Of a DNA stretch of 40,000 nucleotides, positions 2,386 through 17,459 are shown one piece after another. The DNA comes from Nitrospira sp. MA-1. GTDB taxonomy: Bacteria > Nitrospirota > Nitrospiria > Nitrospirales > UBA8639. The stretch spans positions 1 to 40,000 of the forward strand of contig JAQJDB010000005.1 in NCBI GenBank assembly GCA_032139905.1, written 5' to 3'. The notes under the pieces were generated by a model. The model had not been told where the DNA came from. It searched no databases and saw only the letters and a program-made list of their open reading frames with translations. The position numbers were made by a program, and so were the translations under genes. How positions within the stretch are numbered: the stretch's first letter is position 1; the number at the start of each line of letters is the position of its first letter.

Positions 2386-2941
2386 TTTCCAGAATTTCTC
2401 AACCCGTATTTCGAAAAGCTGAAACTACCCCTGAGTTCCTTCAGGAATCTTGGACAGACGCGGATCTTCGTTCTGTCGATATCGGGATCTCGGGCGTCTC
2501 TGCTCTAGCTTGCGTCTTCATCCCGCCTCGCGAGATTTAGGCTATTAGGCAGATAGTTGACGATCCAGATAAGAGGATGACAGGTGCCGGAGCCGGCGTA
2601 AGTGGAGGCTGGTGTGAATAAAGATGATGCCGACCATTCCACAGGCAAGGGCCGGCTTCACGATAGAAAAGATGAGCAGCAATGCCAGAAAGACAGTCAT
2701 TGTCGTGTGTGTCCTTAGGGTTGATCTGTAGAGTTGAGGGCTGAGGCTATATGGATATGTTCGGCCAAATGGGAGCTTAGCTTGAGAGGGGACACAGAGG
2801 ATGATCCGGAAACCCTGACCATCAATCCTGGTATTAAATGACCGCTGATTGATTAAAACCGACCACTCGTCAGGTTAGCTTCGTGGAAATAATCTATCGG
2901 CTCTATGATGAGGCACCAATTTTGGGAAGGAAAGGAAATGG
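2386..2941. other. Gap of about 550 bases; only a possible small minus-strand gene
   Basis: Apart from the 51-codon frame at 2545-2700 described separately, no gene, terminator or repeat was recognised. The last 110 bases presumably hold the promoter of the histidine kinase gene, but no confident -35/-10 pair could be picked. Confidence 0.4.
2545..2700 (-). CDS. Possible 51-residue membrane or secreted peptide
   Basis: Minus-strand frame from ATG (2698-2700) to TAA (2545-2547). Residues 1-20 are strongly hydrophobic and end in ALAC, resembling a signal peptide or lipobox-less anchor. A second hydrophobic stretch (GMVGIIFIHT) leads into an Arg-rich segment (LRRLRHL). AAGGA sits about 11 bases before the start, slightly far for a ribosome site. 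No family was recognised. It could be a genuine small membrane protein or a chance frame; there is no comparative support within the window. Confidence 0.35.
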   Translation of the reverse strand: MTVFLALLLIFSIVKPALACGMVGIIFIHTSLHLRRLRHLSSSYLDRQLSA

Positions 2942-5080
2942 TTGTCATGGAACGATGCCATGTTGACTGAAGTGTCCGATTTCTCTGTCTCGTTTATCGC
3001 GCATGTCAGCGGGTACGCCATCGGCATGATTTTGTATGCCATGTTGTTGTGGCTGGTTTTCCAAGCCTTGCAGGAATCGACCCAAAAGGGTCAGAGCGAA
3101 CCCTCTGCCCAATCACCCAGATGGCTTGCATGTTGGACGGCAATTTTAGGCTTGCTGTGGAATGTTGGAGCCCTGCTGGCCTTTCTGCTTCCGAATCTAC
3201 ACCTGACCGCACCGCTTCCGGTGTTATATGCGTTGGCGGTCTCCGCATTGGGGTTTCTTCCCGCTGTCGTTGTTCTGGCTATGGTTGATTCGCAGCCCAT
3301 GGGTCTGTCTGCCTGGGTTCGTCGAGTAATTTCTGCATCCGGTTTTGTGTTAAGCGGGTGGGCATCTCTGATGCACCTCCATGCTGCTCTGATCGGGGAG
3401 GCGGGGAGCATGTCCGGAACAGCGCTCCAGGTCATGGTCTGGGGCTATCTCGTGTTTCTGATCTGGCTCCTGGCTGTCAGGGTCCGGACGGAGGGATGGG
3501 ATTATATGGGAGGAATCGTCGTTCTTTCCGGATTGGCCATTGCTGTTCTTCCCTTTAGTCAGCATGAGACCGGGGAATATTCCTGGGGCATGGAGGTTGT
3601 CGGTCATCACGCCAACCTCCTGTTGGCCCTGGCCATTCTCTATCAGGACTACCGCTTTGCTCTGGGAGACCTTTTCTTGAAGCGGGCGTTATCGTTTTTG
3701 GTGTTGGCCCTGGTGACGCTTGGTGCGTTGATCACCGTTGGGATTCCGGTGTTACGGCTCGACCCGGACAATGAAATGGCCAACCTATCCCGGCTTGGTG
3801 TTTTTTTGGCACTTTGGATCATCACTGCGTTGGCCTATCCCCATTTGCGAAAAGCGGTGATCTGGCTGGTGGATGTCGTGGTGTTGCGGCGTCCGGACTA
3901 CGATCAGCTCAGGCAGGAGGTGGCGATCGAGGTTAATCAGGAGGAAGAGCCCGAACGGATTTTGTCCCATGTCGGCGCGTTACTCCAGCCAGCTCTGTTG
4001 GCCAGACAGATTACCTGGAGGCCTTGGAGACTGGACGGCGAGGCCGGGTCTGAATGGCCGGGCCAGGTCGGCTCCTTTGACGGGGATCGGGAGGAAGAAT
4101 CTCTGGCCAGTGGAGCGGTCTCCGTTGGAAGCCTGGTCAGAAAAGGGAGCAGAGGGTCTTCTTTGGCCACGCCTTGCGGAGAAGAGTTCCTCGTGGTTAT
4201 TCCAACGATGGAATTGCCTCAATACGTTCTGGTGATCCAGGGGTTTTTCCATCGAAGGCGATTGCTTTCGGACGATCTGGTCCTGTTGGAAGCCGTGGCC
4301 CATATCATTGCCAGAAGGATCGATGCGGTGCGTTCGGCCCACGAGCGCTGTGCCGTCGCCATTCGAGAGCAGGAAATGAGAAAACTGACCATTGAGGCGG
4401 AACTCCGGGCTCTGCGCACCCAATTGAATCCTCACTTTTTATTTAATGCCTTAACCACCATTGGCTATCTTATTCAAACGGCACCGGCGCGGGCGCTGGA
4501 CACGCTCATGCGGCTGACGGAGTTGCTGAGAGGCGTGTTGAAGCATCTTGAGGGGGATTTTTCCACCTTGGGCCAGGAAGTGGATTTGGTCCAGGCTTAT
4601 CTCATGATTGAACAGGCACGTTTCGAACGGCGGTTGGCCTATCAAGTCAATGTGCCGTCAAATTTACGGGATCTACGGGTGCCGGCTCTGGTGTTGCAAC
4701 CACTGGTGGAAAATGCGGTGAAACACGGTATTCAAAAGTGTGCCAAGGGAGGGGTCATTAAAATCGAGGCCGAAGTGGAACAGCGGAAAAACGAACATGA
4801 TCACGGAGCATGGATAACTCCTGAGCTCGTAATTACGGTGCAGGATACGGGACATGGTCTGTCAGGGAAGGGGCAGGAGGCTGCCTGGGGAGCTGGGATC
4901 GGGTTGGCCAATATCAGGAAACGTTTGCAATTACATTATGGCGATCATGCCACGCTATCCATGCATCGAAACCCGAAGCTTGGCACGATTGTCCACATCC
5001 GTATTCCTCTTGTTCGTTCGAGCGATCTCCTGGCAGAAGAATCCGAATGTCTTCATTCCGTCCAGGGAGCGAAAGAATGA
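2942..5080 (+). CDS. LytS/AlgZ-type membrane sensor histidine kinase
   Basis: 712 residues. The N-terminal 300 or so hold about seven to nine hydrophobic segments, a membrane sensor region. A GAF-like linker (about 330-460) and a coiled stretch follow, then the His_kinase (PF06580) box LNPHFLFNAL with phospho-acceptor H498. An HATPase domain has the N-box LVENAVKHGI and glycine boxes DTGHGLSG and GAGIGLANI. Kinases of this type signal to LytTR regulators, and the gene overlaps one by ATGA. Start: TTG 2942 has an AGG six bases upstream; ATG 2960 is the alternative. A 10-codon frame opens at ATG 2938 and overlaps the start out of frame. Lying just upstream of the Tad pilus genes, it probably controls them. 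The ligand is unknown. Confidence 0.88.
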   Translation: MSWNDAMLTEVSDFSVSFIAHVSGYAIGMILYAMLLWLVFQALQESTQKGQSEPSAQSPRWLACWTAILGLLWNVGALLAFLLPNLHLTAPLPVLYALAVSALGFLPAVVVLAMVDSQPMGLSAWVRRVISASGFVLSGWASLMHLHAALIGEAGSMSGTALQVMVWGYLVFLIWLLAVRVRTEGWDYMGGIVVLSGLAIAVLPFSQHETGEYSWGMEVVGHHANLLLALAILYQDYRFALGDLFLKRALSFLVLALVTLGALITVGIPVLRLDPDNEMANLSRLGVFLALWIITALAYPHLRKAVIWLVDVVVLRRPDYDQLRQEVAIEVNQEEEPERILSHVGALLQPALLARQITWRPWRLDGEAGSEWPGQVGSFDGDREEESLASGAVSVGSLVRKGSRGSSLATPCGEEFLVVIPTMELPQYVLVIQGFFHRRRLLSDDLVLLEAVAHIIARRIDAVRSAHERCAVAIREQEMRKLTIEAELRALRTQLNPHFLFNALTTIGYLIQTAPARALDTLMRLTELLRGVLKHLEGDFSTLGQEVDLVQAYLMIEQARFERRLAYQVNVPSNLRDLRVPALVLQPLVENAVKHGIQKCAKGGVIKIEAEVEQRKNEHDHGAWITPELVITVQDTGHGLSGKGQEAAWGAGIGLANIRKRLQLHYGDHATLSMHRNPKLGTIVHIRIPLVRSSDLLAEESECLHSVQGAKE

Positions 5081-5856
5081 GCGGAAAAATCCGGGTCATT
5101 GTTGTTGATGATGAGCGGCCGGCACGGTCATTTCTGGCGACAACCCTGAAGACCCTGGATGATGTCGACATTGTGGGTGAAGCGGAGAACGGTGAGGACG
5201 CGATCAGCCTGATTCAACGGGAACAACCCGATCTGGCATTGCTGGATCTTCAAATGCCTGGATTGGATGGCCTCTCCTTGGTCAAGGCCATCAAAAAAGG
5301 GCATATTCCGTTGATTGCGTTTGTCACGGCCCACAATGAATATGCCATCGAGGCGTTCGATATCGAGGCCATCGACTACTTGTTGAAACCGGTCGATCGC
5401 TTGCGACTGCGAAAAACCATCAAACGGGCAAAGGAGCGTTTGGAACGGGAAGATGTCATGGCGAATGAATTGGAAGCTCGACCGCGCGGCCAGGAGGGGA
5501 GCCCTCCGGAGGATTCGGATTACATGGACCGTCTCCCGATCAAAAAGAAGGAAGAGATCATTTTCCTGCCGGTCAATCAGATCGCCTCTATCGTCTCGGA
5601 TGGAGAGTTGATGCATATCACCACGCTTCGAAAGGAACGTCATACTATCAGCCACCGGCTCAAGGCGCTTGAGGCCAGACTGGATCCCAGGCGATTCGTG
5701 CGTTTGGGTCGCGGGACTTTGGTCAATGTGGAGTCGATATGCCGGGTGGCTACTATGCCGGGTGGGTCGTATGTCGTCACCTTGACCAATACCCAACAAC
5801 TCAGAGTCAGCCGCAGTCAGTCACGATTTTTACGGCACCAAATCTTGAGGTTGTAA
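5077..5856 (+). CDS. LytTR-family response regulator, probable regulator of the Tad locus
   Basis: 259 residues. The receiver domain (1-120) has the acidic pair DD at 11-12, phospho-acceptor D57 in LLDLQMPG and the conserved K of LLKPVD. A charged linker (about 125-155) is followed by a LytTR DNA-binding domain (about 158-259) with FLPVNQIASI and a terminal SRSQSRFLRHQ segment. ATG 5077 is chosen over an in-frame upstream ATG at 5047 because it overlaps the kinase stop (ATGA) and follows GGGAGCGAAAG. Translational coupling with the kinase is likely. LytTR proteins bind paired direct repeats about 20-22 bases apart; such pairs lie before flp (5934-5962) and before cpaC (6598-6631), so this protein is the obvious candidate activator of pilus synthesis. 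The family is certain; the target is inferred. Confidence 0.92.
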   Translation: MSGKIRVIVVDDERPARSFLATTLKTLDDVDIVGEAENGEDAISLIQREQPDLALLDLQMPGLDGLSLVKAIKKGHIPLIAFVTAHNEYAIEAFDIEAIDYLLKPVDRLRLRKTIKRAKERLEREDVMANELEARPRGQEGSPPEDSDYMDRLPIKKKEEIIFLPVNQIASIVSDGELMHITTLRKERHTISHRLKALEARLDPRRFVRLGRGTLVNVESICRVATMPGGSYVVTLTNTQQLRVSRSQSRFLRHQILRL

Positions 5857-5933
5857 GATACCTGTCTTGCGGATCAATCCCTTGCCGGTTTTCCCCTTCC
5901 CCTCTGCCGTAATCCAGTCATTCAGGCCAATCA

Positions 5934-6002
5934 ACCGCTCATGAAATTATATGACCGTTCATAAAAAAAGACTGTGGATTACGCGCATCCCGCCTTTATA
6001 AA
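5934..6002 (+). promoter_or_regulatory. Candidate LytTR operator and promoter of flp
   Basis: ACCGCTCAT (5934-5942) and ACCGTTCAT (5954-5962) form a direct repeat with a 20-base period. The second copy fits the published LytTR consensus [TA][AC][CA]GTTN[AG][TG] fully, the first with one change. A TATAAA-type -10 lies at 5997-6002 with no good -35, as expected for an activator-dependent promoter. The flp ATG is about 170 bases further on. A weaker pair may exist at 6022 (AAAGTTTAT) and 6045 (TCCGTTCAG). Function is inferred. Confidence 0.5.
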
Positions 6003-6174
6003 TTGACTGGTATTCGAAATGAAAGTTTATGGAAAGCCGTGTAGTCCGTTCAGTGACAGGTTTCCGGAAATCGTAAGTCTCAGGCGAGTGCCCGGACGCT
6101 TGAAGGAGGATTTGTCTTCTTTGACCCTCCAGGGTCCTTAAGGCGTCAATATCAATTAAAAGGAGGGTTTTCGT

Positions 6175-6522
6175 ATGTTTAAAAAGTTACGTAGTCAAGC
6201 GGGCGCGGCGTTGGTGGAATATAGCCTTCTCGTCGCGGGAATTGCCTTAATCGGAGCGGCCGCCGTGGCGGTATTCGGCCACAAAACCTCGGATATGATG
6301 GCCGCGGTCGCTGCGGTGTTGCCCGGGGCACATGCTGACGATAATGCCCCGATTGTCGCAGGAAAAATCATTGAAACCAGTGTAGATGGTGGACCCGGTG
6401 GCGATGCCATTGCCTTGGATATTGGCGGCATTGTTGCCAACGCCGGCACCGAACGGCTAGGAAATAGCTTTGGGACCACTACGAGTATTTCGACATTGGT
6501 TGTCGAAGCTCAATCCGAGTAA
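6175..6522 (+). CDS. flp: Flp/Fap-family type IVb major pilin
   Basis: 115 residues. A short basic leader (MFKKLRSQAG) is followed by the prepilin peptidase site, with cleavage expected after G10 and the conserved glutamate and tyrosine at +5/+6 of the mature protein (AALVEY). A single hydrophobic helix runs to about residue 35. This is the building block of the Tad pilus, processed in the inner membrane by TadV/CpaA. Typical Flp pilins have 50-80 residues; here a further 70-odd residues rich in Gly, Ala, Asp and Thr extend the C-terminus. AGGAGG at about 6161-6166 gives a very strong ribosome site, fitting high expression. The gene is insulated by its own terminator (6553-6592) and preceded by a LytTR-type operator. 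Confidence 0.9.
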   Translation: MFKKLRSQAGAALVEYSLLVAGIALIGAAAVAVFGHKTSDMMAAVAAVLPGAHADDNAPIVAGKIIETSVDGGPGGDAIALDIGGIVANAGTERLGNSFGTTTSISTLVVEAQSE

Positions 6523-6552
6523 GCTCCCTAGGGTTTGTACATGCATGCGAGT

Positions 6553-6592
6553 AAAAAGCCTTCCCAGTCGAGTCAGGCCGGGAAGGCTTTTT
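6553..6592 (+). terminator. Rho-independent terminator after flp
   Basis: A perfect 13-base inverted repeat, AAAAAGCCTTCCC (6553-6565) and GGGAAGGCTTTTT (6580-6592), closes a 14-base loop and ends in a T-run. It separates flp from the cpaC operon, allowing pilin to be made in excess of the machine. Confidence 0.9.
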
Positions 6593-6597
6593 GTTTG

Positions 6598-6689
6598 AGC
6601 CGTCCATTGGTAAAAAATAGCCGTTCATTGGATGACTCTGACAGTCCAGAAGAATCACCTCGTGGGCGAGCGAAGCAATCTCCTATAAG
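6598..6689 (+). promoter_or_regulatory. Second candidate LytTR operator, upstream of the cpaC operon
   Basis: AGCCGTCCATTGG (6598-6610) and AGCCGTTCATTGG (6619-6631) are 13-base direct repeats differing at one position, with a 21-base period. The core CCGTTCAT is identical to the flp operator's second copy. A possible -10, TATAAG, lies at 6684-6689. The distance from the second repeat to this -10 exceeds the flp case by about 21 bases, two helical turns. The repeat is seen directly; binding by the LytTR regulator is inferred. Confidence 0.5.
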
Positions 6690-6776: not shown

Positions 6777-8879
6777 ATGAACGAGGGTATAACGAATAAA
6801 ATGAAAGATAATCCAGCTAGATTGCCAAAGCCTGTCACTCTGGGCTATCAGAATATCCGGCGCATGAGCCTCCTGGTGAGCGTGATTTTTCTGCTTCTTC
6901 TTCCCACCGCAATAGCCCAAACGCCCTCTTCGAAGCTATCCCCAAGGACAATAGTTCTTAAAAAATCCCCGGAGTCTCCTACCCCTTTGCCCGTGATTGT
7001 GGCCCAACACCGACGTGTGTTGATTGATGATCCGGTGCAGCGGGTTGCGGTGGGCGATACGTCCATCGTTTCGGCTCAGTTGATTAACAATAAGGAAATC
7101 TTGTTTCTTGGTCAGCGGCCCGGACGCACCTCGGTCATTGTCTGGCTTCAGTCAGGAGCGATTCGTCATTATCAATGCAATGTGCAGTTGGATCTTTCCG
7201 TTCTGCATGCGGCTTTGCATAACGTTCATCCCAGCATCGGTGTGACCAGCGCTCCGGACCGTGACGCCTTGATCCTGACCGGAAAGGTTCCTGATGTGAC
7301 CTATTCTCAGGCGGCGGAGGGAATCGCGCAGAAATATGTGAATGCCAGAACGGGAGAAAGAAAGGCAGGTCAAGGGCCCTTTGTGAAAAGTTCCGACGGG
7401 CAGCGGGCAAATCAATCTCAGCCCGGAAGGTCGAGTCAATCCTCGGGATCATCCAGCTCTTCTTCCGATGATGAGGCTGATGGAGAATCCCCATCAAGCG
7501 ATTCCTCCGCCCACATTGAAGTCGCGGAGGCCATCCCGGTCGGCGGCACCATTATCAATCTGATTCAATTGGATACGTTGCCGGCTACTCCCGAGGAGCG
7601 CATGCAAGAGGCAATTCGGAATCTTGGGGGTGAGCAGGTGACGGTGCGGCGAGTCAAACGAGGTATTGTGCGTGATGATGAGCAGGATGTCTTTGTCCTG
7701 GAGGGGTCGGTGAAAAATCAAGTGGCCCTCTTGCGTGTGCTGGAGGTGGGTTCCCGAATGCTGACCGGCCACGGCGCCACGCGACATAGTATTCGCGTGG
7801 TGGGTGATGAAGCGGGGGCGTTGGCCGGTCGATTGGGACAACAGCAAGGGGGGCAGCAAGGGCAGCAAGGGCGAATGATGATTGGTGGGGGCGGCGGTGG
7901 AATTGGCCAGCTGTTTGGAGGGGCAGGTAGGTCGGGGCGCGTCAGTAACCTGGTGCAATCGAATCTGGGCCGGGCCAAAGTGATCGAAGCGGCCAATGGG
8001 CGCATTATTTCTTTTCTTCATGTGAGGGATCTTCCGCAAATTCGGGTCAACATCAAACTCTATGAAGTCAATCGGACAAAACTGCGATCCTATGGCTCGG
8101 ATTTTGTCGGGACCTTTGACAATTTCGGGTCAGCCCCCGAGTCCGGGGCCCGAAACATTTTGGGCTTTCTGACCGGTACGCTTGTAGCCGACACGTTTAT
8201 TCGAAGCGGCGAGTTTGCCATTCGATCAGTCTTCACCTATTTGGAGAGTCTGGATTTGGCGCGAAGCCTGGCTTCTCCTTCGCTCACCGTGCTGTCTGGA
8301 GAAATTGCCGCCTTTCTGGTTGGAGGAGAAGTCCCGATCGAGCAGGCATTTTCCCCGTTTTTCGGCGGTGGAGATATCACTGGTGCGGCAGGGGTTTTTC
8401 AGTTTGTCACGTTTCGTGAATTCGGGATCTCCCTCCGTGTTCGCGCGCTGGTGGGGGAAGACGGGGATCTCACGATCGATGCGGTTCCGCAAGTGGTGAC
8501 ACCTGATTTGACCTTGACGGCGGGCATTGAAGAGGCCACGGGAACCAATCAACCCACGACAGCATTCAAAAACCGGTCCATGCAGACGAGTGCACGCATG
8601 CAGGATGGCCAGGCCATCCTGATTGGAGGCCTCCTCTCGCGTGACAAATCAGATCAGCAGGACTTTATTCCTGGAGTTCGTGACATCCCGGGGTTGGGTT
8701 GGTTGTTTCGACGGTTTACGCAAAACGACGAAGAGGTTGAACTGGTTATTGTCATTCATCCTGTCATTATGAGGGAGCCGATTCCCGAGGTGGGCCTCTG
8801 GGCTTTTCCCACTCTCACCGACTATCGACCGGCTTGGGAATTCAAGTCATGGCCGGCACCTGAGGAGAAAGGCTTGTGA
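6777..8879 (+). CDS. cpaC: Tad pilus outer-membrane secretin (CpaC/RcpA)
   Basis: 700 residues. A long basic head with RR is followed by a hydrophobic signal segment to about residue 48 (AIA then Q). A pilus N-terminal domain (about 55-135; RRVLIDDPVQRVAVGD) and a BON-like region follow. A Ser-rich linker (about 205-245) and a Gln/Gly-rich linker (about 352-385) come before the C-terminal secretin domain with VGGEVPIEQ and the closing LVIVIHPVIM motif. Secretins form the ring through which the pilus crosses the outer membrane. Starts at 6777, 6801 and 6864 are possible; the first two keep the RR of the signal peptide, and none has a strong ribosome site. The stop overlaps the next start (GTGA). 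It is the first gene of the machine operon, after the second LytTR-like operator. Confidence 0.9.
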   Translation: MNEGITNKMKDNPARLPKPVTLGYQNIRRMSLLVSVIFLLLLPTAIAQTPSSKLSPRTIVLKKSPESPTPLPVIVAQHRRVLIDDPVQRVAVGDTSIVSAQLINNKEILFLGQRPGRTSVIVWLQSGAIRHYQCNVQLDLSVLHAALHNVHPSIGVTSAPDRDALILTGKVPDVTYSQAAEGIAQKYVNARTGERKAGQGPFVKSSDGQRANQSQPGRSSQSSGSSSSSSDDEADGESPSSDSSAHIEVAEAIPVGGTIINLIQLDTLPATPEERMQEAIRNLGGEQVTVRRVKRGIVRDDEQDVFVLEGSVKNQVALLRVLEVGSRMLTGHGATRHSIRVVGDEAGALAGRLGQQQGGQQGQQGRMMIGGGGGGIGQLFGGAGRSGRVSNLVQSNLGRAKVIEAANGRIISFLHVRDLPQIRVNIKLYEVNRTKLRSYGSDFVGTFDNFGSAPESGARNILGFLTGTLVADTFIRSGEFAIRSVFTYLESLDLARSLASPSLTVLSGEIAAFLVGGEVPIEQAFSPFFGGGDITGAAGVFQFVTFREFGISLRVRALVGEDGDLTIDAVPQVVTPDLTLTAGIEEATGTNQPTTAFKNRSMQTSARMQDGQAILIGGLLSRDKSDQQDFIPGVRDIPGLGWLFRRFTQNDEEVELVIVIHPVIMREPIPEVGLWAFPTLTDYRPAWEFKSWPAPEEKGL

Positions 8880-9805
8880 AGTGGAGTGTAAAAGCCTTGA
8901 TGACAAAGGCTCATCCATCCTTCGGTCCGGTGGCATCACAACGTGGCGGGGTACTCATTGAATTTGCCTTTCTGTCGTTGGTGTTCTATGTGCTGGTTGC
9001 GTTGGTTGTGGACATCGGAAGAATGGTATTTGCCGCTCAAGTGCTCCAGGATGCTGCCCGTGTGGCCGCCCGCGAATTGGCATTGGTCCCCCTTCCCGCC
9101 GCCATGACCTTTGAGCAAGCGTTGGAGGATCCAACGGTCCTGGCTCAGGTATTCGATCCGGCCTTGCTGGTCATCGATCTCGACACGTTTGGCGATGACG
9201 ATGTGGCGTTTCAAGCGTTTCTGGATCAGTTGCCCATGGTCAATAAAATGTTGAGACCGCTCATGATTTTCGAACAGGCTGACATTCAAGGTTCCGGCCG
9301 ACGATTGCTGAGGTTTCCCGGTGCGCTTTTGAATGATCCTTCGGCCCCGAGTGGTCTGGGAGTGGGAATTCCACGGGTGGAATCCCGCGGGGCGAATGGC
9401 GTGGAAGCCATTCGATGGGTTCCGGTTCTTGAAGAAATCACGAACGGCTCTTTCAGTCTGGTGCCACTTGACCCCGAGAATCCGCCTCCTCAACGGGGTC
9501 TGGTGGCGGTTCGCATCAATTATCCGTTTCAAGCGGCGATGTTGAGCGGTTTTCAGCAAGGTCCGGGAGGCCCGTTTGAACCGAACCTGGACAATCGCAT
9601 TCAAGCGGACGATGAAAGCGTAGACGATTCCATAAATGCTCCGCCACGGGGGACGCCATTTGGGATTGGTGACTTGCCTGAAGTAGGCGTGTACGGCGGA
9701 CGTTTTGGCCTTGGAGGACAATTGGCTTTTGGCGGTGAAACGCTCAGGCCCTACAGGAAGCTTCTTTCCGCTCAAGCCATTTCCAGGCGGGAGGTGTTCT
9801 TATGA
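8876..9805 (+). CDS. TadE-like pilus assembly pseudopilin
   Basis: 309 residues. The N-terminus carries the TadE signature, QRGGVLIEFAFLSLVFYVLV, with a Gly-x-x-x-x-Glu element that could be cut by the prepilin peptidase, then one membrane helix and DIGRMVFAAQVLQDAARVAAR. The remaining 240 residues are predicted extracytoplasmic. It is about twice as long as ordinary TadE, so it could also be called a TadE/TadG hybrid. TadE-type minor pilins are needed for pilus initiation or stability. GTG 8876 overlaps the secretin stop and follows GAGGAGAAAGG. The 3' end overlaps CpaB by ATGA. Confidence 0.82.
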   Translation: MKWSVKALMTKAHPSFGPVASQRGGVLIEFAFLSLVFYVLVALVVDIGRMVFAAQVLQDAARVAARELALVPLPAAMTFEQALEDPTVLAQVFDPALLVIDLDTFGDDDVAFQAFLDQLPMVNKMLRPLMIFEQADIQGSGRRLLRFPGALLNDPSAPSGLGVGIPRVESRGANGVEAIRWVPVLEEITNGSFSLVPLDPENPPPQRGLVAVRINYPFQAAMLSGFQQGPGGPFEPNLDNRIQADDESVDDSINAPPRGTPFGIGDLPEVGVYGGRFGLGGQLAFGGETLRPYRKLLSAQAISRREVFL

Positions 9806-10827
9806 AAACTGCCGGGTTTCATCCTCGATCGTCGTGGGTCAGATTCGTGTCGTCCCCGTTTTTTTTGGCGGGCATGCTTGTCGTGATTCTAGGGGGATTG
9901 TGGGTGTCCGGCCTGGTGAACCCTTGCTGGTTCGGAGTGAATTGCGGGCCTTCCACGGAGGGGCTGGTTGCCGTTCCGGTCAGCGCGCAAACGATTCCGG
10001 CGTTCACCCAATTGAGCCGTCAACATGTGTGGAATGCCGGAAAAGGGCAGCCGGCTGTCGTGCTGCTTCCCCCGGAACAGGTGACCGAGGCAATGAAAAC
10101 CAATTTAACGGACATTCTCGGTCGTGTCCTTGGGCGAGAGAAGCCTGCCGGATATGTTTTCACGGAAGTCGATTTTCTGCCGCGTGGTTCCCGTCCTGGG
10201 TTAGTCGGGGGGATTCCCCCAGGGAAGCGGGCGGTCCGGGTCGAAGCCGGTCAGGTCAGCGGGTTATATGGCCTGAATCCCGGAGATCGCTTCGACCTGA
10301 TCGCGACTTTGCCGATCGACGCGGAGGGGAAGGAAAACTCATTGACCATGGGAGGAGTCTATGGTCAACAATTAGCGCTCCAGGCGAATTTACATAATTG
10401 GGCCAAACAAGCCACCGTGCGGGTGCTGGTGCAAAACGGTGTGCTGGTTCAACCGTTGACGACCCGGGAAATTCCTCTCTCGATGAATACGCTGACCCAG
10501 GGTCTTGTGGTCAAAAAGAAGCCTGTTCAAGAAATCGTCATCGCGGTGGACCCGGAAGAAGTGGCTTCATTGACCGAAGCCGTAGCCGTGAAGGCCGAGA
10601 TTACGACCATTCCTCGTTCAGGACATCCGGACGATCCCGGGGACAGCGAGACACCGGAATCCCAACCCTGGAGCCCCTTTTGGAATACGTTGGCTTTAGG
10701 GAAGTCTTCTGGCGGGATTTCAAAAAATGGAAATACGGAATCTTCGCTCACGTTTGTGGAAACCTTGAACGGATCGGGAGAACGGGAGTTAATTACCGTG
10801 CCTGTTGCGTCGGATCGGGAGAAATAG
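9802..10827 (+). CDS. cpaB: Tad pilus assembly protein CpaB/RcpC (SAF domain)
   Basis: 341 residues with an N-terminal membrane anchor (about 19-40). A SAF-type region (about 55-125; LVAVPVSAQTIPAFTQL) and an RcpC domain (about 135-265) follow, the latter with GKRAVRVEAGQVSGLYGLNPGDRFDLIAT and VRVLVQNG. A disordered C-terminal tail is rich in Pro, Ser and Gly. CpaB/RcpC is a periplasmic partner of the secretin. Overlap with TadE is ATGA. The stop TAG at 10825-10827 shares its G with a GTG that could have been the original start of the next gene. Gene order secretin, TadE, CpaB differs from the common CpaB-before-CpaC order. Confidence 0.87.
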   Translation: MKTAGFHPRSSWVRFVSSPFFLAGMLVVILGGLWVSGLVNPCWFGVNCGPSTEGLVAVPVSAQTIPAFTQLSRQHVWNAGKGQPAVVLLPPEQVTEAMKTNLTDILGRVLGREKPAGYVFTEVDFLPRGSRPGLVGGIPPGKRAVRVEAGQVSGLYGLNPGDRFDLIATLPIDAEGKENSLTMGGVYGQQLALQANLHNWAKQATVRVLVQNGVLVQPLTTREIPLSMNTLTQGLVVKKKPVQEIVIAVDPEEVASLTEAVAVKAEITTIPRSGHPDDPGDSETPESQPWSPFWNTLALGKSSGGISKNGNTESSLTFVETLNGSGERELITVPVASDREK

Positions 10828-10894
10828 TGCGATGTTATACACGATGTACGTTCATGCTTGAACGCGACACGGTACACTTTGGGAATGTCAGGCT

Positions 10895-12124
10895 ATGTTG
10901 GTGCTGTTCGTCTTGCTGGTTTGGGGAATGCTGGGTATTGGCTCCTTAGTGATCGATTGGGGGTATGTCAATCTCACCAGAGTGCAAATGCAAAATGTTG
11001 CAGATGCTGCGGCGGGGGAAGGCTTGCGTCTGCGTGATGTGGCCCCAGAGGATCCGGTTGCCAGTGATCTCAACCGCCGGGTGGCGGTGAGCCAGCTGGC
11101 CGCATGGACGTATGATGATGACTTTGATCTGACCGACGATCTCCTGCAGTTTGGTGCGGGGCCTGATATGTTCCTGACTGGAGGACAAACCGACCTCAAT
11201 GCGATGCAGAAATTAGACGTCCCGCCGGCCCCCGTCTACAAACCGGTGTTGCAATGGAATGATGAAGCCAATGCCCGACATGGCGATATGGTCAGCGGGA
11301 CGTTTGGGATTCCCGATCCCGGTTGTTCGGTGGAAGCCCCGCGCCGGGAATGTGCAAATTATACCCGGATCGATTTCGTCCCGGCTGAAGTGAACGCCAG
11401 TCCGACGGCCGATGCCTTTCTCGTGCGATTGCGGCGCTCCATAAAACCGGAACCCTTTCAAGGTCAGGCCAGCGTCGATAATGTGCCGGGAGTGAGTTCG
11501 GCCGGCCCGACCCTGCCGCTGGTGTTAGGACTTGGCTCGCCTCTCCAGGCCCAAATCGATTCGCCTGGAATTCGTTTTACGGGCATAACCGTGCGGGCGA
11601 CAGCCATTGCCGATGCCCGCCCTGTTCGAGGAGTGGGTCTGCCGGATATCTTGTCCGAGCCTCCCCGTCTGGGTGTTGCCCCGTTTGCGCTTGCCCGTGC
11701 AGGCTGGCGGGATTCTCTGGTGATGGATGTTCCCAGTTCGGGCACCGTGGATTCTTCAGGGGTCGTGGCGGTCGGGTCCACGGCAATAGGCCGGTTTCTC
11801 CTTCCGGTTACGAGCATTGGCGAACCTGTTCTTGCTCGATTTCCTGAAGGGGGACAGGTGACGATCGACGGATATGCACCTCTCTACGAAGATTTTTTGG
11901 GGACGGAACGGGTGGTGGGATTTGCACGGGTTGAAATGACCGGCACCTCGCCCGGTTCGGTACAGATTATCAGGCGACCGGGTCAAGTGGCTGTAGAAAA
12001 TGCCACCGTCTCTCTCCTGCCTGCGTTTCCCCTTCTGCCGGAACCCGAATTGGCATTGTTGCTTCATGTTAATCGTGACATTCAGAAAGAGGGAGCCCTG
12101 CTGGCTCCGGCGCTGGTTCGTTAA
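10895..12124 (+). CDS. TadG-like pilus protein, possibly with a disrupted N-terminus
   Basis: 409 residues. The N-terminal helix MLVLFVLLVWGMLGIGSLVIDWG is followed by VQMQNVADAAAGEGLR, the typical TadG/Tad N-terminal pattern that anchors the protein in the inner membrane. The rest is periplasmic. Family members normally begin with a short basic head containing R-G-x-V before this helix. Here the ATG lies directly on the helix with only GGGA ten bases upstream, while a different frame from GTG 10827 (spaced 5 bases after GGGAG and overlapping the CpaB stop) encodes a head ending FMLERDTVHFGNVR and would join the helix after a single-base shift between 10862 and 10946. Either the gene is frameshifted, the sequence has an indel, or the short start is real. 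Confidence 0.72.
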   Translation: MLVLFVLLVWGMLGIGSLVIDWGYVNLTRVQMQNVADAAAGEGLRLRDVAPEDPVASDLNRRVAVSQLAAWTYDDDFDLTDDLLQFGAGPDMFLTGGQTDLNAMQKLDVPPAPVYKPVLQWNDEANARHGDMVSGTFGIPDPGCSVEAPRRECANYTRIDFVPAEVNASPTADAFLVRLRRSIKPEPFQGQASVDNVPGVSSAGPTLPLVLGLGSPLQAQIDSPGIRFTGITVRATAIADARPVRGVGLPDILSEPPRLGVAPFALARAGWRDSLVMDVPSSGTVDSSGVVAVGSTAIGRFLLPVTSIGEPVLARFPEGGQVTIDGYAPLYEDFLGTERVVGFARVEMTGTSPGSVQIIRRPGQVAVENATVSLLPAFPLLPEPELALLLHVNRDIQKEGALLAPALVR

Positions 12125-12138
12125 GGAGTAAACGTGCA

Positions 12139-13359
12139 ATGGAAACGAATCTCCATATCCTCGTGGTAGGGAAATCCCCTGGACTCCGCGCGGAATTTGA
12201 TTCCGCGCTTCAGGGTGTGGGCAGTTACCGATGCGTCACGGTCTATGCCGAGTCATTCCGTCATGCGGAAGAGCTGGCCAGGAACCGCCGGCCTCAATTG
12301 ATTTGTGTCGAGATGAATGGAAATCTTCGCGGCTTGAAGGAGTTTACGATTGATGTGTCTCAGATGTTGCCGGGAACCGCTATCGCCGGCTTGTACAAGC
12401 CCGATCTTTTTGAATCTGATCAATCGGAAAGCGCATTTATTCTTGAAGGCGTCCGGGCGCGTATTCAGGATTTCCTCCGGCACCCGCTCTCCAGCACCGA
12501 AATTCGACAGGTCTTCGACCGGGTTTTTGTGCAGGGAAAGACCAAATCCAGCCTGTCCCCGCTCGGCCATATCGTCTCGTTTGTCAGCAACAAAGGCGGA
12601 GTGGGGAAATCGACGATTTCAGTCAATATGGCGTGTTTGCTGGCCAGTCGCCATCCCGGCCAGGTGTTGCTGGTGGATGCGTCTTTGCAGTTGGGCGTTG
12701 CCGCAGTGATGCTTGATCTGAATCCCCGAACGACCATTGTGGACGCCGTTCGTGAAAAAGGACGTCTTGATGAGACGTTGCTTCGCGAATTGACCGTGTC
12801 TCATCCGTGCGGGTTGTCGCTTCTGGCCGCGCCGGGGAATGCGGCCGAAGCGTCTGAGGTGGATGAGGAATCCATGTATCGTATTTTGAACTTAGCGCGG
12901 CGAACGTTCACGTACGTGGTGGTTGATACGTTTCCCATGTTGGATAGTGTCGTGATGACGGTGTTGGATCTGTCCACCTTTACCTATGTCGTGATGCAGG
13001 GAACGGCGCCCAATGTCATTGGCACGGCCAAACTGCTTCCAATTTTGGAGGGGCTTGGATGTCCGGTCGAGCGTCAGCGTTTGGTCCTGAATCAGAACTA
13101 CCGGAATTTTGCCGGAAATTTGACGCAAACGGAGATTGAGGAGCGGTTGATGAGAGAATTTCATTATGTCTTTCCCTATCAAAAGAAACTGTTAACCTGC
13201 GCCAATCTCGGGGAACCGTATATTCTCCAAACTACCCGATACTTCGGGTTCGGACGTAGCGCTCATCTGTTGGTTGGGGAAATCGAGCAGTTAGCGGACC
13301 GGGCGGTTGCCGCGGAAATTGATCACTTGGCGAAACTGATGAACGAGGAGCCGGCCTGA
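12139..13359 (+). CDS. cpaE: Tad pilus localisation ATPase TadZ/CpaE
   Basis: 406 residues. Residues 1-130 form a receiver-like domain without an obvious phosphorylation site (atypical receiver, as in the family). From about 145 comes a ParA/MinD-type ATPase with deviant Walker A NKGGVGKST (about 150-158), LLVDASLQLG as the switch region and VVVDTFP as Walker B. TadZ/CpaE positions the pilus machine, usually at a cell pole. It sits 14 bases after the TadG-like gene and 13 bases before the ATPase gene, and is part of the same operon. Confidence 0.88.
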   Translation: METNLHILVVGKSPGLRAEFDSALQGVGSYRCVTVYAESFRHAEELARNRRPQLICVEMNGNLRGLKEFTIDVSQMLPGTAIAGLYKPDLFESDQSESAFILEGVRARIQDFLRHPLSSTEIRQVFDRVFVQGKTKSSLSPLGHIVSFVSNKGGVGKSTISVNMACLLASRHPGQVLLVDASLQLGVAAVMLDLNPRTTIVDAVREKGRLDETLLRELTVSHPCGLSLLAAPGNAAEASEVDEESMYRILNLARRTFTYVVVDTFPMLDSVVMTVLDLSTFTYVVMQGTAPNVIGTAKLLPILEGLGCPVERQRLVLNQNYRNFAGNLTQTEIEERLMREFHYVFPYQKKLLTCANLGEPYILQTTRYFGFGRSAHLLVGEIEQLADRAVAAEIDHLAKLMNEEPA

Positions 13360-13372
13360 CCGTTCCCTTACC

Positions 13373-14827
13373 ATGAGCGAACAGGATTTTCCATTACCTT
13401 CGTCATCAGAGAGCCGGCCGCCCGTTCCGTTTGGAAAATCATTAAGTGCGGATACGGCCTCGAGGCTCAAGGCTGCGCTGAAACGTCCGGCGATGAACGT
13501 GGTCAAAGACGAAGCATTGCTGGATGATCCATTGGCGCGAGTCAAGCATGCCGATTATCTGTCGATTAAAAGCGCCCTTCAGGAGCGACTCCTGAATGAA
13601 ATCGGAGAACATTTGGCCGCTGGACTCAATCATGAGGATGTATCGGCCGTAGTGAAGGAGTTTACCGCGCGGATTTTAGAATCGGAGCACATTCCCTTGA
13701 ATCAGGCGGAGCAGGGACGGCTGGCCGAAGAATTGACCGAGGAAGCCATTGGTTTGGGGCCCTTGACTCCGCTGTTGGCCGATCCGGCTGTGACGGATAT
13801 TCTTGTCAACGGCCACCAGTCAGTCTATGTGGAGCGGTATGGCCGGTTGGAAAAAACTGACGTTCAGTTTCTGGACGACGATCATGTGATTCGGGTGATC
13901 GAGCGGATTGCGGCGCAAATGGGCCGGAGGGTGGATACGGCCTCTCCAATGGTGGATCTACGCCTGGCGGATGGCACGCGGGTTAATGCCACCCTGCCTC
14001 CGGCGACGATCGACGGGCCGACCCTCTCCATTCGGCGGTTTGGCGTCCGTCGGCTACGGCGGAATGATCTCCTGGGACTGGGAACGCTGTCGCCGGATAT
14101 GGCGACGTTTCTGGAGCTGGTGGTTCGCGGCAAGAAAAATCTTCTGATTTCAGGTGGAACGGGGGCCGGGAAATCCACCCTGTTGGGGGCGTTGTCGGAG
14201 GCTATTCCCTTTCACGAGCGCATCATTACGATTGAAGATACCGCGGAATTACACCTGGATCAGGAACATGTGGTCCGGATGGAAACCCGGCAGCCGAATA
14301 TCGAGGGCAAAGGGCGGATTTTGGCTAGGGATCTGGTGGTGAATGCCTTACGGATGCGGCCGGACCGGATCATCGTCGGGGAAGTTCGTGGGCCGGAATC
14401 CCTGGATATGTTGCAAGCTATGAATACCGGTCATGAAGGCAGCATGAGCACGGTTCACGCCAATTCCCCCCGTGATGCGTTGTCGCGGTTGGAAACCATG
14501 GTGCTTTTTGCGGGCACGGAATTGCCTTCCCGCGCCATTCGAGAGCAAATGGTTTCTGCCCTTCATCTTATTATTCAGGTCCGGCGGTATGAAGACGGCG
14601 TGCGCCGGATCGAAACGATTGCGGAAATGACCGGCATGGAGGGCCTGACCCCTCTCATGCAGGACATCTTTCAGTTCCGGCGGCGCGGGTTTCGGGGAAA
14701 GCGTGTGGCCGGAGAATTTGTGCCGACCGGTATCGTTCCAAGAGTGGTTGAAGAATTGCGTGAACAGCATATCGACATTCCCCTGTCCCTGTTTACCGGA
14801 GGAAGAGATCTCCATGGGTTTTCGTGA
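13373..14827 (+). CDS. cpaF: Tad pilus secretion ATPase TadA/CpaF
   Basis: 484 residues. An N-terminal all-alpha and PAS-like region ([19 protein letters not shown], about 140-160) is followed by the VirB11/CpaF ATPase core with Walker [11 protein letters not shown] (about 260-269), Asp box [11 protein letters not shown], Walker [12 protein letters not shown] and the His box STVHANS. This hexameric cytoplasmic ATPase drives assembly of Flp pilin. Length is normal and all catalytic motifs are intact. No strong ribosome site is visible before ATG 13373, 13 bases after TadZ, so coupling is likely. The last 14 bases overlap TadB. Confidence 0.93.
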
Positions 14828-15677
14828 ATTTGCGGGGTTGATGGCGATTGGTCTGATTGTCGGGCTGTGCGTTTGGTGGTGGAGAAACTTCTCTTTTCGG
14901 GTGGCCACTCAGGCCAGGCTTGCGCAGGATGGGGCAGGGCGGGAATCCCATCAGACCGGTCGGTCGGTCCGGCGCGTATTCCCTCCCCGTTATCGTATCA
15001 TTCCCGCGTGTCTAGGAGTGGGAGCGAGTGTTGGTTTATTTTATTTCGTGGAGTTCTCTCCCCCGTTTGCCGGAGCCGCAGGGCTGATGCTTGGAGTGTT
15101 AGGATTTTTACTGGAGTCTATTATTGCCGGCAAGCGCTTGAGCCGCATTGAAACCCAATTGGCCGATTCGATCGATCTAATGGTGGGAGCCTTACAGGCG
15201 GGGTTATCACTCCCCAAGGCGCTGGATACTGCTCGACAGGAGTCTGTCGCGCCTCTACGGCCGTATTTGGATAACCTTGTGCGAAAAATCCGTCTGGGAG
15301 AAAACCCCGCAACTGCAGTTCGAGAATTGGGAGAGCGGGTTCCGTTGGAAACCTTTCAACTGTTTTCGCTGACGCTTTCGGCCCAGTGGTGGACAGGAGG
15401 GAGTTTGGCCCCCACCTTGTCCGTTGTGGGAAGAACGATTCGGGACCGGATTGAACTCTCCCGGCGTATTCGGACCCAAGCCGTAGAGGCTAAAGCCTCG
15501 GTGATCGGGGTGTTGGCCATATCCTATGTGTTGACGTTCATCATGTGGAGGGCGAATCCCCGCCCGTTAGAGAATTTTTTCAATAGTGACATCGGATCCT
15601 TGCTGGCGGGAGCGGCTATCGGATTGCAAGCGTTGGGCATCGTGTGGATTAACCGGATCAGTCAGGTCAAATTTTAG
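14814..15677 (+). CDS. tadB: Tad pilus inner-membrane platform protein TadB
   Basis: 287 residues from ATG 14814, preceded by GGAGGAAGAG; an in-frame ATG at 14703 would only add residues that overlap CpaF. N-terminal hydrophobic helices are followed by a T2SSF domain (about 120-245; IETQLADSIDLMVGALQAGLSLPKALD) and two C-terminal helices. TadB pairs with TadC as the inner-membrane platform that couples the ATPase to pilin. It overlaps the upstream gene by 14 bases, and the downstream gene starts 11 bases after its stop. Confidence 0.9.
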   Translation: MGFREFAGLMAIGLIVGLCVWWWRNFSFRVATQARLAQDGAGRESHQTGRSVRRVFPPRYRIIPACLGVGASVGLFYFVEFSPPFAGAAGLMLGVLGFLLESIIAGKRLSRIETQLADSIDLMVGALQAGLSLPKALDTARQESVAPLRPYLDNLVRKIRLGENPATAVRELGERVPLETFQLFSLTLSAQWWTGGSLAPTLSVVGRTIRDRIELSRRIRTQAVEAKASVIGVLAISYVLTFIMWRANPRPLENFFNSDIGSLLAGAAIGLQALGIVWINRISQVKF

Positions 15678-15688
15678 GTGAGGTCGTC

Positions 15689-16651
15689 ATGGATCGAATG
15701 TGGTATTTCGGCCTGATTATTGTCGCGATTGTGGCATCAGTCATGTTGACGCCCTGGGCGGGTATGTTTGTCGCGCTTCTTCTGCTGTTGTTCGGAATGG
15801 TTTCTTGGGCAAGTCGTCACCGGAGTGTTGAGCGGGTTCGCGACACTCTGGAGTCGGAACGTTCTGTTCTGGAACTTGGACGGGCACGCTCCGAGTGGTG
15901 GCTGCGCCGGTGGTTGTTTTTGTCGGGGTTTCGAGGGCGATTGGCGCCCGTGGTCTTTATGGGACTTACCGGAGGAGCGCTAGCTCTGGGAATCGCGAGT
16001 GCATATATCATGAACCGGTCTGGAGTGGTTGATGTGATGGTGGTGCCACTGCAGGGTATTCCGGGAGGAATCGGGGAGGCTTTTATTTCCGTGGCCTATG
16101 CGGGCCCCTGGATCGTGCTTTCCCTGTTAGCCAGCATTCCATTGCTGGTGGTTCGTGCGTCCCGTCGCCAACGGGTCACGGATGTCGACCATGACCTTCC
16201 TTTGATGCTGGAATTGCTGGCCACGCTGACAGAAGGGGGACTGAGTTTTGATGCGGCCCTGGATAAAATACTCGGGGCCCAGTTTCGCACCAGGCCTTTG
16301 TCGCAGGAGTTTCGTACCTACCATCGAGAACTGCAGCTGGGTGTGTCCAGATTGCAGGGTCTTCGACGGCTGGCCTACCGTTTGGAAGTGACTTCCGTCT
16401 CGTTCCTGATTTCCGCATTGATTCAAAGCGAACAAGTAGGGGCAAGTATTGCCACGATGCTTCGCCGTCAGGCCGACGATCTCCGGAACCGTCGCCGAGA
16501 GCAGGCTTTGATGCTTGCTCAAGCCCTTCCCGTCAAATTGGTGGTTCCGCTCATTCTTTGCTTTCTCCCGGGAATATTCGTGTCCACGCTCGGTCCCTCG
16601 TTACATCAACTGGTGAACCTTGTGAGCGGGATGACGGGAGGGATTCGGTAA
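15689..16651 (+). CDS. tadC: Tad pilus inner-membrane platform protein TadC
   Basis: 320 residues. About four membrane helices flank a T2SSF domain (about 165-290) with VDHDLPLMLELLATLTEGGL and QALPVKLVVPLILCFLPGIF, the usual TadC C-terminal pattern. GTGAGG lies about 6 bases before ATG 15689. It forms the platform with TadB. The length is normal. It is the ninth pilus gene of the run, counting from flp. Confidence 0.9.
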   Translation: MDRMWYFGLIIVAIVASVMLTPWAGMFVALLLLLFGMVSWASRHRSVERVRDTLESERSVLELGRARSEWWLRRWLFLSGFRGRLAPVVFMGLTGGALALGIASAYIMNRSGVVDVMVVPLQGIPGGIGEAFISVAYAGPWIVLSLLASIPLLVVRASRRQRVTDVDHDLPLMLELLATLTEGGLSFDAALDKILGAQFRTRPLSQEFRTYHRELQLGVSRLQGLRRLAYRLEVTSVSFLISALIQSEQVGASIATMLRRQADDLRNRRREQALMLAQALPVKLVVPLILCFLPGIFVSTLGPSLHQLVNLVSGMTGGIR

Positions 16652-16691
16652 TGGTCTGGCCTGTGAGTCCCTACACAGCAGAGGAGTCGAC

Positions 16692-17459
16692 GTGAAGTTG
16701 TGGGCTGCCTCTGGGTTGATAGTTGGTCTGCTTGTCTGTTCGGCGTGCGCCGATGCCCCTTATCTTCGAAATCAATACGAAACGGCCTGCACGTTACCCG
16801 ATCTTCAACTGGCCGAAGCGTGGGACTTGCTGGAGGAAGCCCGATCGACCTCTGGCGGATGCGACCGCGATGCTCGCGGAATGGATCGTTGCCGTGCGCT
16901 GCGCGGTGAAATTGAAAGAATTGCGTTTGTTTGTCCAAACCACATTCCTTCTTTGATGACGACGGCTGTTCTGGCCTATGAGGACAGGGACTTGGGGAAA
17001 GCCGGGGAACGGCTCACATCCATTTTGGATATGGTCAAAGTGCATCCGGACGCCGCGGTGTTACGGGCACGGATTGCTCTGGAAGAAGGGAATCTTCCGT
17101 TCGCCCTTACCTTCCTGAAACAGCGCATGGAGCTGTCTCCTGACCATGCTCAGCTCCGGGAGGTGTATGCGGCCACCCTGTTTCTTTCCGGGCGACTTGA
17201 AGAAGCCAGGACTCAATTGGCGGTGGCCGAACAACTCGGGGCCCCTCGATGGCGGGTTGCATATCATCTCGGGCTGTTTGAAGAACGGAAGGGAGAGCTA
17301 CAGAAAGCGCGCCTCCTGTACCAGGAATCTGCGGATTTAAAGGCTGATTGGACTCTTCCCATTTCCCGGTTGCACGGGCTATTGGCCAAGCCTCTTTCAG
17401 ATAAAAAGCCGTCTGCTCTGGATGGAGGTTATTTCGAGCTTCCTTCGCTTCTCAAGTAG
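16692..17459 (+). CDS. TadD-like TPR lipoprotein or secreted protein
   Basis: 255 residues starting at GTG 16692, five bases after GAGGAG. The N-terminus (LIVGLLVCSACADAP) is a signal peptide with cysteines placed like a lipobox, but the -3 residue is unusual, so lipidation is likely rather than certain. The body is made of helical TPR-like units: VLAYEDRDLGKAGERL, VLRARIALEEGNLPFALTFL, VYAATLFLSGRLEEARTQL, and YHLGLFEERKGELQKARLLY. TPR lipoproteins (TadD) assist secretin assembly in Tad systems, and this gene closes the operon. Divergence from known TadD is high, so assignment rests on TPRs plus context. Confidence 0.75.
   Translation: MKLWAASGLIVGLLVCSACADAPYLRNQYETACTLPDLQLAEAWDLLEEARSTSGGCDRDARGMDRCRALRGEIERIAFVCPNHIPSLMTTAVLAYEDRDLGKAGERLTSILDMVKVHPDAAVLRARIALEEGNLPFALTFLKQRMELSPDHAQLREVYAATLFLSGRLEEARTQLAVAEQLGAPRWRVAYHLGLFEERKGELQKARLLYQESADLKADWTLPISRLHGLLAKPLSDKKPSALDGGYFELPSLLK

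Follow-up and report, generated by a model that had tools for sequence, protein, structure and literature searches.

Predicted LytTR operators before both transcripts of a Tad pilus locus in the Nitrospirales

Tad pili drive surface attachment, and the locus described here, in which a LytS/LytTR kinase-regulator pair is followed by flp and a cpaC operon, raises the question whether the pair controls the pilus. The original prediction was that it does so through paired direct repeats lying in the gaps before flp and cpaC. The window (the whole stretch of DNA analysed, 40,000 nucleotides) is the start of contig C5 in a genome of 4.76 Mb that is 99.98% complete; by regulator, the nearest named relatives are the Nitrospirales MAGs UBA8639, NPIRA06 and OFTM334. 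The features of the locus are collected in Table 1.

Table 1. Features of the kinase-regulator and Tad pilus region, in window coordinates
Feature	Position	Strand	Remarks
Predicted kinase-operon operator, ACCGCTGAT / ACCACTCGT	2841..2870	+	half-sites 2841-2849 and 2862-2870, period 21; weak here, strong in relatives
Candidate -10 box, kinase	2904-2909	+	TATGAT; +42 from second half-site
LytS/AlgZ-type histidine kinase	2942..5080	+	His_kinase PF06580 and HATPase_c; start codon uncertain
Response regulator, receiver and LytTR DNA-binding domains	5077..5856	+	Pfam domains; sole LytTR protein of the genome
Possible third, distal flp half-site, TCCAGTCAT	5913..5921	+	>4 bits at expected spacing; tentative
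Predicted flp operator, direct repeat ACCGCTCAT / ACCGTTCAT	5934..5962	+	period 20; matrix rank 1 in window; shuffles
Candidate -10 box, flp	5997..6002	+	TATAAA; +43 from second half-site; same in NPIRA06 flp1 and OFTM51 flp1
flp, 115-aa pilin-like protein	6175..6522	+	Flp_Fap E 0.0034, 17.6 bits, under family cut-off 32.2
Intrinsic terminator between flp and cpaC	6548..6597	+	hairpin -28.9 kcal/mol, z -6.3, with T run
Predicted cpaC operator, direct repeat GCCGTCCAT / GCCGTTCAT	6599..6628	+	period 21; matrix rank 2; shuffles; counterparts in NPIRA06 and OFTM51
Candidate -10 box, cpaC operon	6684..6689	+	TATAAG; +64 from second half-site; same box and distance in NPIRA06 and OFTM51
Tad operon, cpaC to TPR protein	6777..17459	+	domain matches
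cpaC secretin	6777-8879	+	
TadE	8876-9805	+	
CpaB-like	9802-10827	+	
TadG-like	10895-12124	+	
CpaE-like	12139-13359	+	
CpaF	13373-14827	+	
TadB/TadC-like	14811-16651	+	
TPR protein (TadD-like)	16692-17459	+	

The kinase (PF06580, 1.3e-21; PF02518, 2.2e-08) adjoins a regulator with receiver and LytTR domains (PF00072, 2.9e-25; PF04397, 4.5e-16), which is the arrangement of a LytS/LytTR two-component system. The regulator falls below the equivalog cut-offs for BtsR (166 bits vs 246) and LytR (141 bits vs 375), and the AlgR model is absent among the 25 models listed for it. Assignment to the LytTR regulatory systems (LRS) was considered and rejected, as these have a membrane inhibitor and no receiver domain, whereas a kinase and a receiver domain are present here. 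A search of 97 genomes found homologues of the regulator in 17, this one included, which belong to three genera of a single family. It is the only LytTR protein encoded in the 4.76 Mb genome, and all eight regulator-positive relatives tested likewise encode a single one; an independent definition of the binding site of this sole LytTR protein was therefore sought. In OFTM334 (L022 3890-6777) the kinase is 58% and the regulator 90% identical to those of the window, a gap which suggests that the kinase of that genome may have been recombined or replaced.

Downstream of the pair, matches to CpaC, CpaB/RcpC, CpaE, CpaF, TadB and TadC, TadE/G and Flp mark a Tad (Flp) pilus locus, those to RcpC and Flp_Fap lying under the Pfam cut-offs; a prepilin peptidase was not identified adjoining the Tad operon. 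The terminator that had been proposed between flp and cpaC was recovered as a strong hairpin. The flp 5' leader of about 170 nt (window 6069-6177; leaders in L021, which is NPIRA06, and L023, which is OFTM51) is conserved between flp paralogues and across two genera and is possibly a structured leader. Rfam gave no match above threshold in the two window gaps or in the loci of two relatives.

The paired repeats are present in both gaps with the sequences and coordinates originally given, except that the earlier 13-mers at cpaC start one base earlier (6598/6619). Each consists of 9-bp half-sites in direct orientation, at 5934-5942 and 5954-5962 with 11 bp between them before flp, and at 6599-6607 and 6620-6628 with 12 bp between them before cpaC. 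Direct repeats of about 9 bp that resemble the consensus and are spaced within 10-13 bp are what characterizes a LytTR operator. The claimed fit to the LytTR consensus held in part: the textbook form [TA][AC][CA]GTTN[AG][TG] is matched exactly by one of the four half-sites (5954) and occurs alone 33 times in the window vs 29.8 expected, so that the consensus fit carries little weight and was not used as evidence; the pairing and the spacing are far beyond chance. The genome-wide scan that had been recommended for the paired pattern was run as CCGYYCAT-N11-14-CCGYYCAT and gave two matches in 4.76 Mb, exactly the flp and cpaC sites, with none genome-wide for the reversed control. In scans allowing up to two mismatches at period 20 or 21, each of the two sites was the best of its own spacing class; a near-perfect period-21 site at C5:534735, tied with the cpaC operator, lies in a probable coding region and was set aside. 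A looser pattern, CCRYYCAT, was uninformative in 97 relatives, with one or two matches per genome, many of them probably coding; the count alone is therefore not decisive, and position and an out-of-sample matrix have to decide. Pattern scans covered the whole 4.76 Mb, matrix scans the window and the loci of relatives.

A direct repeat of the same kind, absent from the original prediction, precedes the kinase gene in the regulator-carrying genomes and adds a third predicted operator. It is weak in the genus of the window (9.6 bits in the window, a score reached by 37 of 4000 shuffles) and strong in the other two genera; the kinase operators of OFTM51, OFTM334 and NPIRA02 have scores reached by one or two shuffles in 4000. 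(Note that in this comparison genomes G017 and G003 are represented by the public records L020 and L021.) Since the motif stands upstream of the kinase in relatives, the likely site of the regulator could be defined independently of pilus genes. This was done in genus g4 (11 genomes), where a cpaC homologue was not detected and flp is not near the regulator. All 11 kinase promoters have a period of 21, a TTGCCG-like hexamer at +19 (the -35-like hexamer thus begins 19 bases past the start of the second half-site, or 10 bp past its end) and TATACT at +42; conservation is 0.91 in half-site 2, 0.95 in the -35 and 1.0 in the -10 hexamer, vs 0.72-0.85 elsewhere.

A matrix trained solely on the 22 half-sites of these 11 promoters, with the consensus ACCGTTCAT, was then applied to both strands of the window. 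The highest score was obtained by the flp operator (23.9 bits) and the second highest by the cpaC operator (20.2 bits), whereas the third match (14.6 bits) overlapped the flp operator. The three best matches in NPIRA06 were the operators of flp1, a second copy of flp, and cpaC. In OFTM51, which belongs to a different genus and has a regulator 76% identical to that of the window, the top five matches in 16 kb were the repeats before the kinase, the two flp copies and cpaC and the one after flp1. LytTR control of the Tad locus, as originally proposed, is thus well supported by comparison, short of proof: a sole LytTR protein, a motif upstream of the kinase that recovers both pilus sites, and conservation. 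In genus g4 a repeat-like match, CCCGTTCATTTGGGGATCGAACGTCCATTGT, follows the regulator but was discarded, being on the opposite strand and inside a conserved, probably coding stretch.

Conservation in relatives that keep the regulator had been named as the test that could overturn the prediction, and the repeats are kept both within the genus and in OFTM51. Of the relatives in the genus, NPIRA06 keeps both the flp and the cpaC repeat, and UBA8639, whose contig stops short of flp, keeps the flp repeat; OFTM51 has both, at unchanged -10 distances for flp1 and cpaC. Conservation within the genus partly reflects shared ancestry, and complete Tad loci are few. Of 48 family genomes searched, four have a cpaC homologue, which in two cases is a fragment lying at a contig end. 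The kinase-regulator pair stands upstream of flp and cpaC in all three with a readable upstream region (own genome, NPIRA06 and OFTM51); in the fourth, the contig starts within cpaC.

Other relatives carry the regulator with no flp beside it. The pair is present in OFTM334 (88% complete) and in NPIRA02 with no adjoining flp and no cpaC detected, and the regulator is present on a short contig, L025, with no adjoining flp. NPIRA02 and L025 hold a flp-leader-like remnant, so the leader seems to persist where flp is gone, which is consistent with pilus loss. On the simplest reading, the Tad locus would be under a self-regulating LytTR switch that is itself more widely distributed.

The -10 candidates lie 43 (flp) and 64 (cpaC) bases from the second repeats, as had been stated, when measured from the start of the second half-site. 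The difference of two helical turns, with the cpaC operator further out, is kept between genera (window and OFTM51); distances in OFTM51 are +42 for the kinase, +43 for flp1 and +64 for cpaC. In NPIRA06 flp2 the -10 candidate is at +49, not +43, and no clear promoter was seen at the OFTM51 repeat after flp1. The predicted operators end upstream of the -35 region, 10 bp before a -35-like hexamer in the kinase promoters and likewise at flp, and 21 bp further out at cpaC. A distal half-site at the expected spacing occurs in most flp promoters of the two genera, with a chance of about 1.6% each or less, and the OFTM51 flp1 counterpart of TCCAGTCAT is GCGGTTTAT; the flp operator may tentatively be credited with a third half-site. 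A third, proximal half-site was considered at cpaC (ACAGTCCAG, 6641), where it would bring the -10 distance back to +43, but with 1.4 bits here and a negative score in OFTM51 it is not claimed. An unpaired, perfect LytTR-consensus half-site, TCCGTTCAG, lies in the flp leader at 6045-6053, downstream of the -10 box, and is altered in NPIRA06.

That the repeats fell into the two gaps by chance is barely conceivable. Such a reading could appeal to the chance-level frequency of single consensus matches in the window and to the one or two loose pairs per genome elsewhere, but in 4000 shuffles of each of the two gaps none reached the observed score with a matrix trained on other genomes, the two sites are the two best matches in the window, and a second genus, which retains the repeats and their -10 distance, already contradicts it. 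It is very improbable, if a little less so, that some other DNA-binding protein prefers ACCGTTCAT and that the kinase-regulator pair is a bystander. Adjacency of pair and repeats is by itself no proof of a link; however, motif and half-site spacing match those of LytTR operators, there is no second LytTR protein in the genome to account for them, and the motif precedes the kinase in regulator-carrying genomes, 11 of which have no detected cpaC or flp nearby.

That the operators belong to the regulator but serve to repress the pilus genes, or to activate one promoter while repressing the other, is unlikely, though less remote than the two preceding. LytTR repressors are known, CoxC binding three direct repeats that overlap a -35 box (PMC11347149), and at cpaC the operator stands two turns further out than at flp. 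Against this, the kinase and flp repeats end upstream of the -35 and leave the promoter elements free, and a simple sigma-70 scan gave no promoter match, the -35 boxes being poor, as would suit activator-dependent promoters. Gram-positive bacteria use AgrA to control quorum-sensing genes. AgrA sites centre near -60 (PMC4227749), and here the kinase and flp operators likewise have their centres some 60 bp upstream of the inferred start. In the LytTR regulatory systems HdrRM and BrsRM, 9-bp direct repeats are paired across spacers of 11-12 bp, mostly 12, and operators about 10 bp upstream of the -35 accompany positive autoregulation (PMC6193735). The present operators share that repeat length, those spacers and, at the kinase and flp promoters, the gap of about 10 bp, which is the published activator pattern; a centre near -60 together with this gap therefore favours activation.

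We thus consider it very probable, on comparative sequence evidence, that the LytS/LytTR system regulates its own operon and activates two separate transcripts, flp and the cpaC-tadD operon. The membrane-bound LytS/AlgZ-type kinase would phosphorylate the regulator, and the phosphorylated regulator would bind in tandem to half-sites resembling ACCGTTCAT, with a period of 20-21 bp and on the same face of the helix, upstream of three promoters: those of the kinase-regulator operon (2841), of flp (5934) and of the machinery operon from cpaC to tadD (6599). From these positions it may activate by contacting RNA polymerase from upstream, and its action on the kinase-regulator operon would form a positive feedback switch; because the window kinase operator is weak, autoregulation here rests mainly on the relatives. 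The terminator after flp would split pilin from machinery transcripts, which is why flp and cpaC would each need an operator of their own. Predicted sites before both pilus transcripts, and more weakly before the pair's own operon, point to a small dedicated pilus switch.

Neither PprB nor CtrA is a LytTR protein. As proposed here, a response regulator is reported to control a Flp/Tad locus in the case of PprA/PprB on flp-tad-rcp of Pseudomonas aeruginosa and of CtrA on Caulobacter pilA (PMC3510237, PMC6821963, PMC11264516). AlgZ(FimS)/AlgR of P. aeruginosa also combines a LytS-type kinase with a LytTR response regulator, and AlgR has the core site CCGTTCGTC, closely similar to CCGTTCAT. AlgR activates the pilus-related operon fimU-pilE (PMC4064291). 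Its targets include type IVa minor pilins and other genes, whereas those here seem confined to the Tad and kinase operons, and some of its sites are remote from the start or oppositely oriented, whereas the paired sites here are tandem and close to the promoters. Literature searches, in which subscription papers mostly fell outside coverage, found no example of LytTR with Tad pili or tight adherence, and only two papers, apparently incidental, that pair LytTR with Flp pili. The regulator is of a known kind, with a target for which no precedent was found in the literature searched; if the circuit is real, it adds a LytTR branch to Tad pilus regulation. Nitrospirales of this type are represented chiefly by MAGs and enrichments, which makes genetics hard. 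A regulator with an apparently single target set, a defined operator and promoters of conserved geometry is open to tests in vitro or in a surrogate host, without cultivation, and the two to three half-sites and two promoter distances make a compact natural series for studying LytTR activation.

As to origin, we offer tentatively, at somewhat less than even odds, that an older self-activating LytS/LytTR switch took over the Tad locus directly downstream; operator, promoter, flp, terminator and next operator would then have been kept as a unit, flp duplications would have carried their own operators, and the two exact turns and the possible third half-site would set the ratio of pilin to machinery. 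flp is duplicated in OFTM51 (L023 7400-8420) and NPIRA06 (L021 7440-9110), where each copy has an operator of its own before it and, in OFTM51, a terminator and then a repeat behind it, so that the flp cassette seems to duplicate as a unit. Where flp would be in genus g4 (L105-L115), a conserved gene for a small, probably exported and possibly TonB-like protein follows the regulator. In two relatives in which cpaC was not detected (L022 ~7000-7180, L024 ~7640-7800), a conserved, apparently non-coding stretch, GTCCGGGTAAG...CCCATGGGAGT...GGGTGAAGG, follows the regulator; it gave no Rfam match at the gathering threshold, and a CCATTCAT half-site precedes it.
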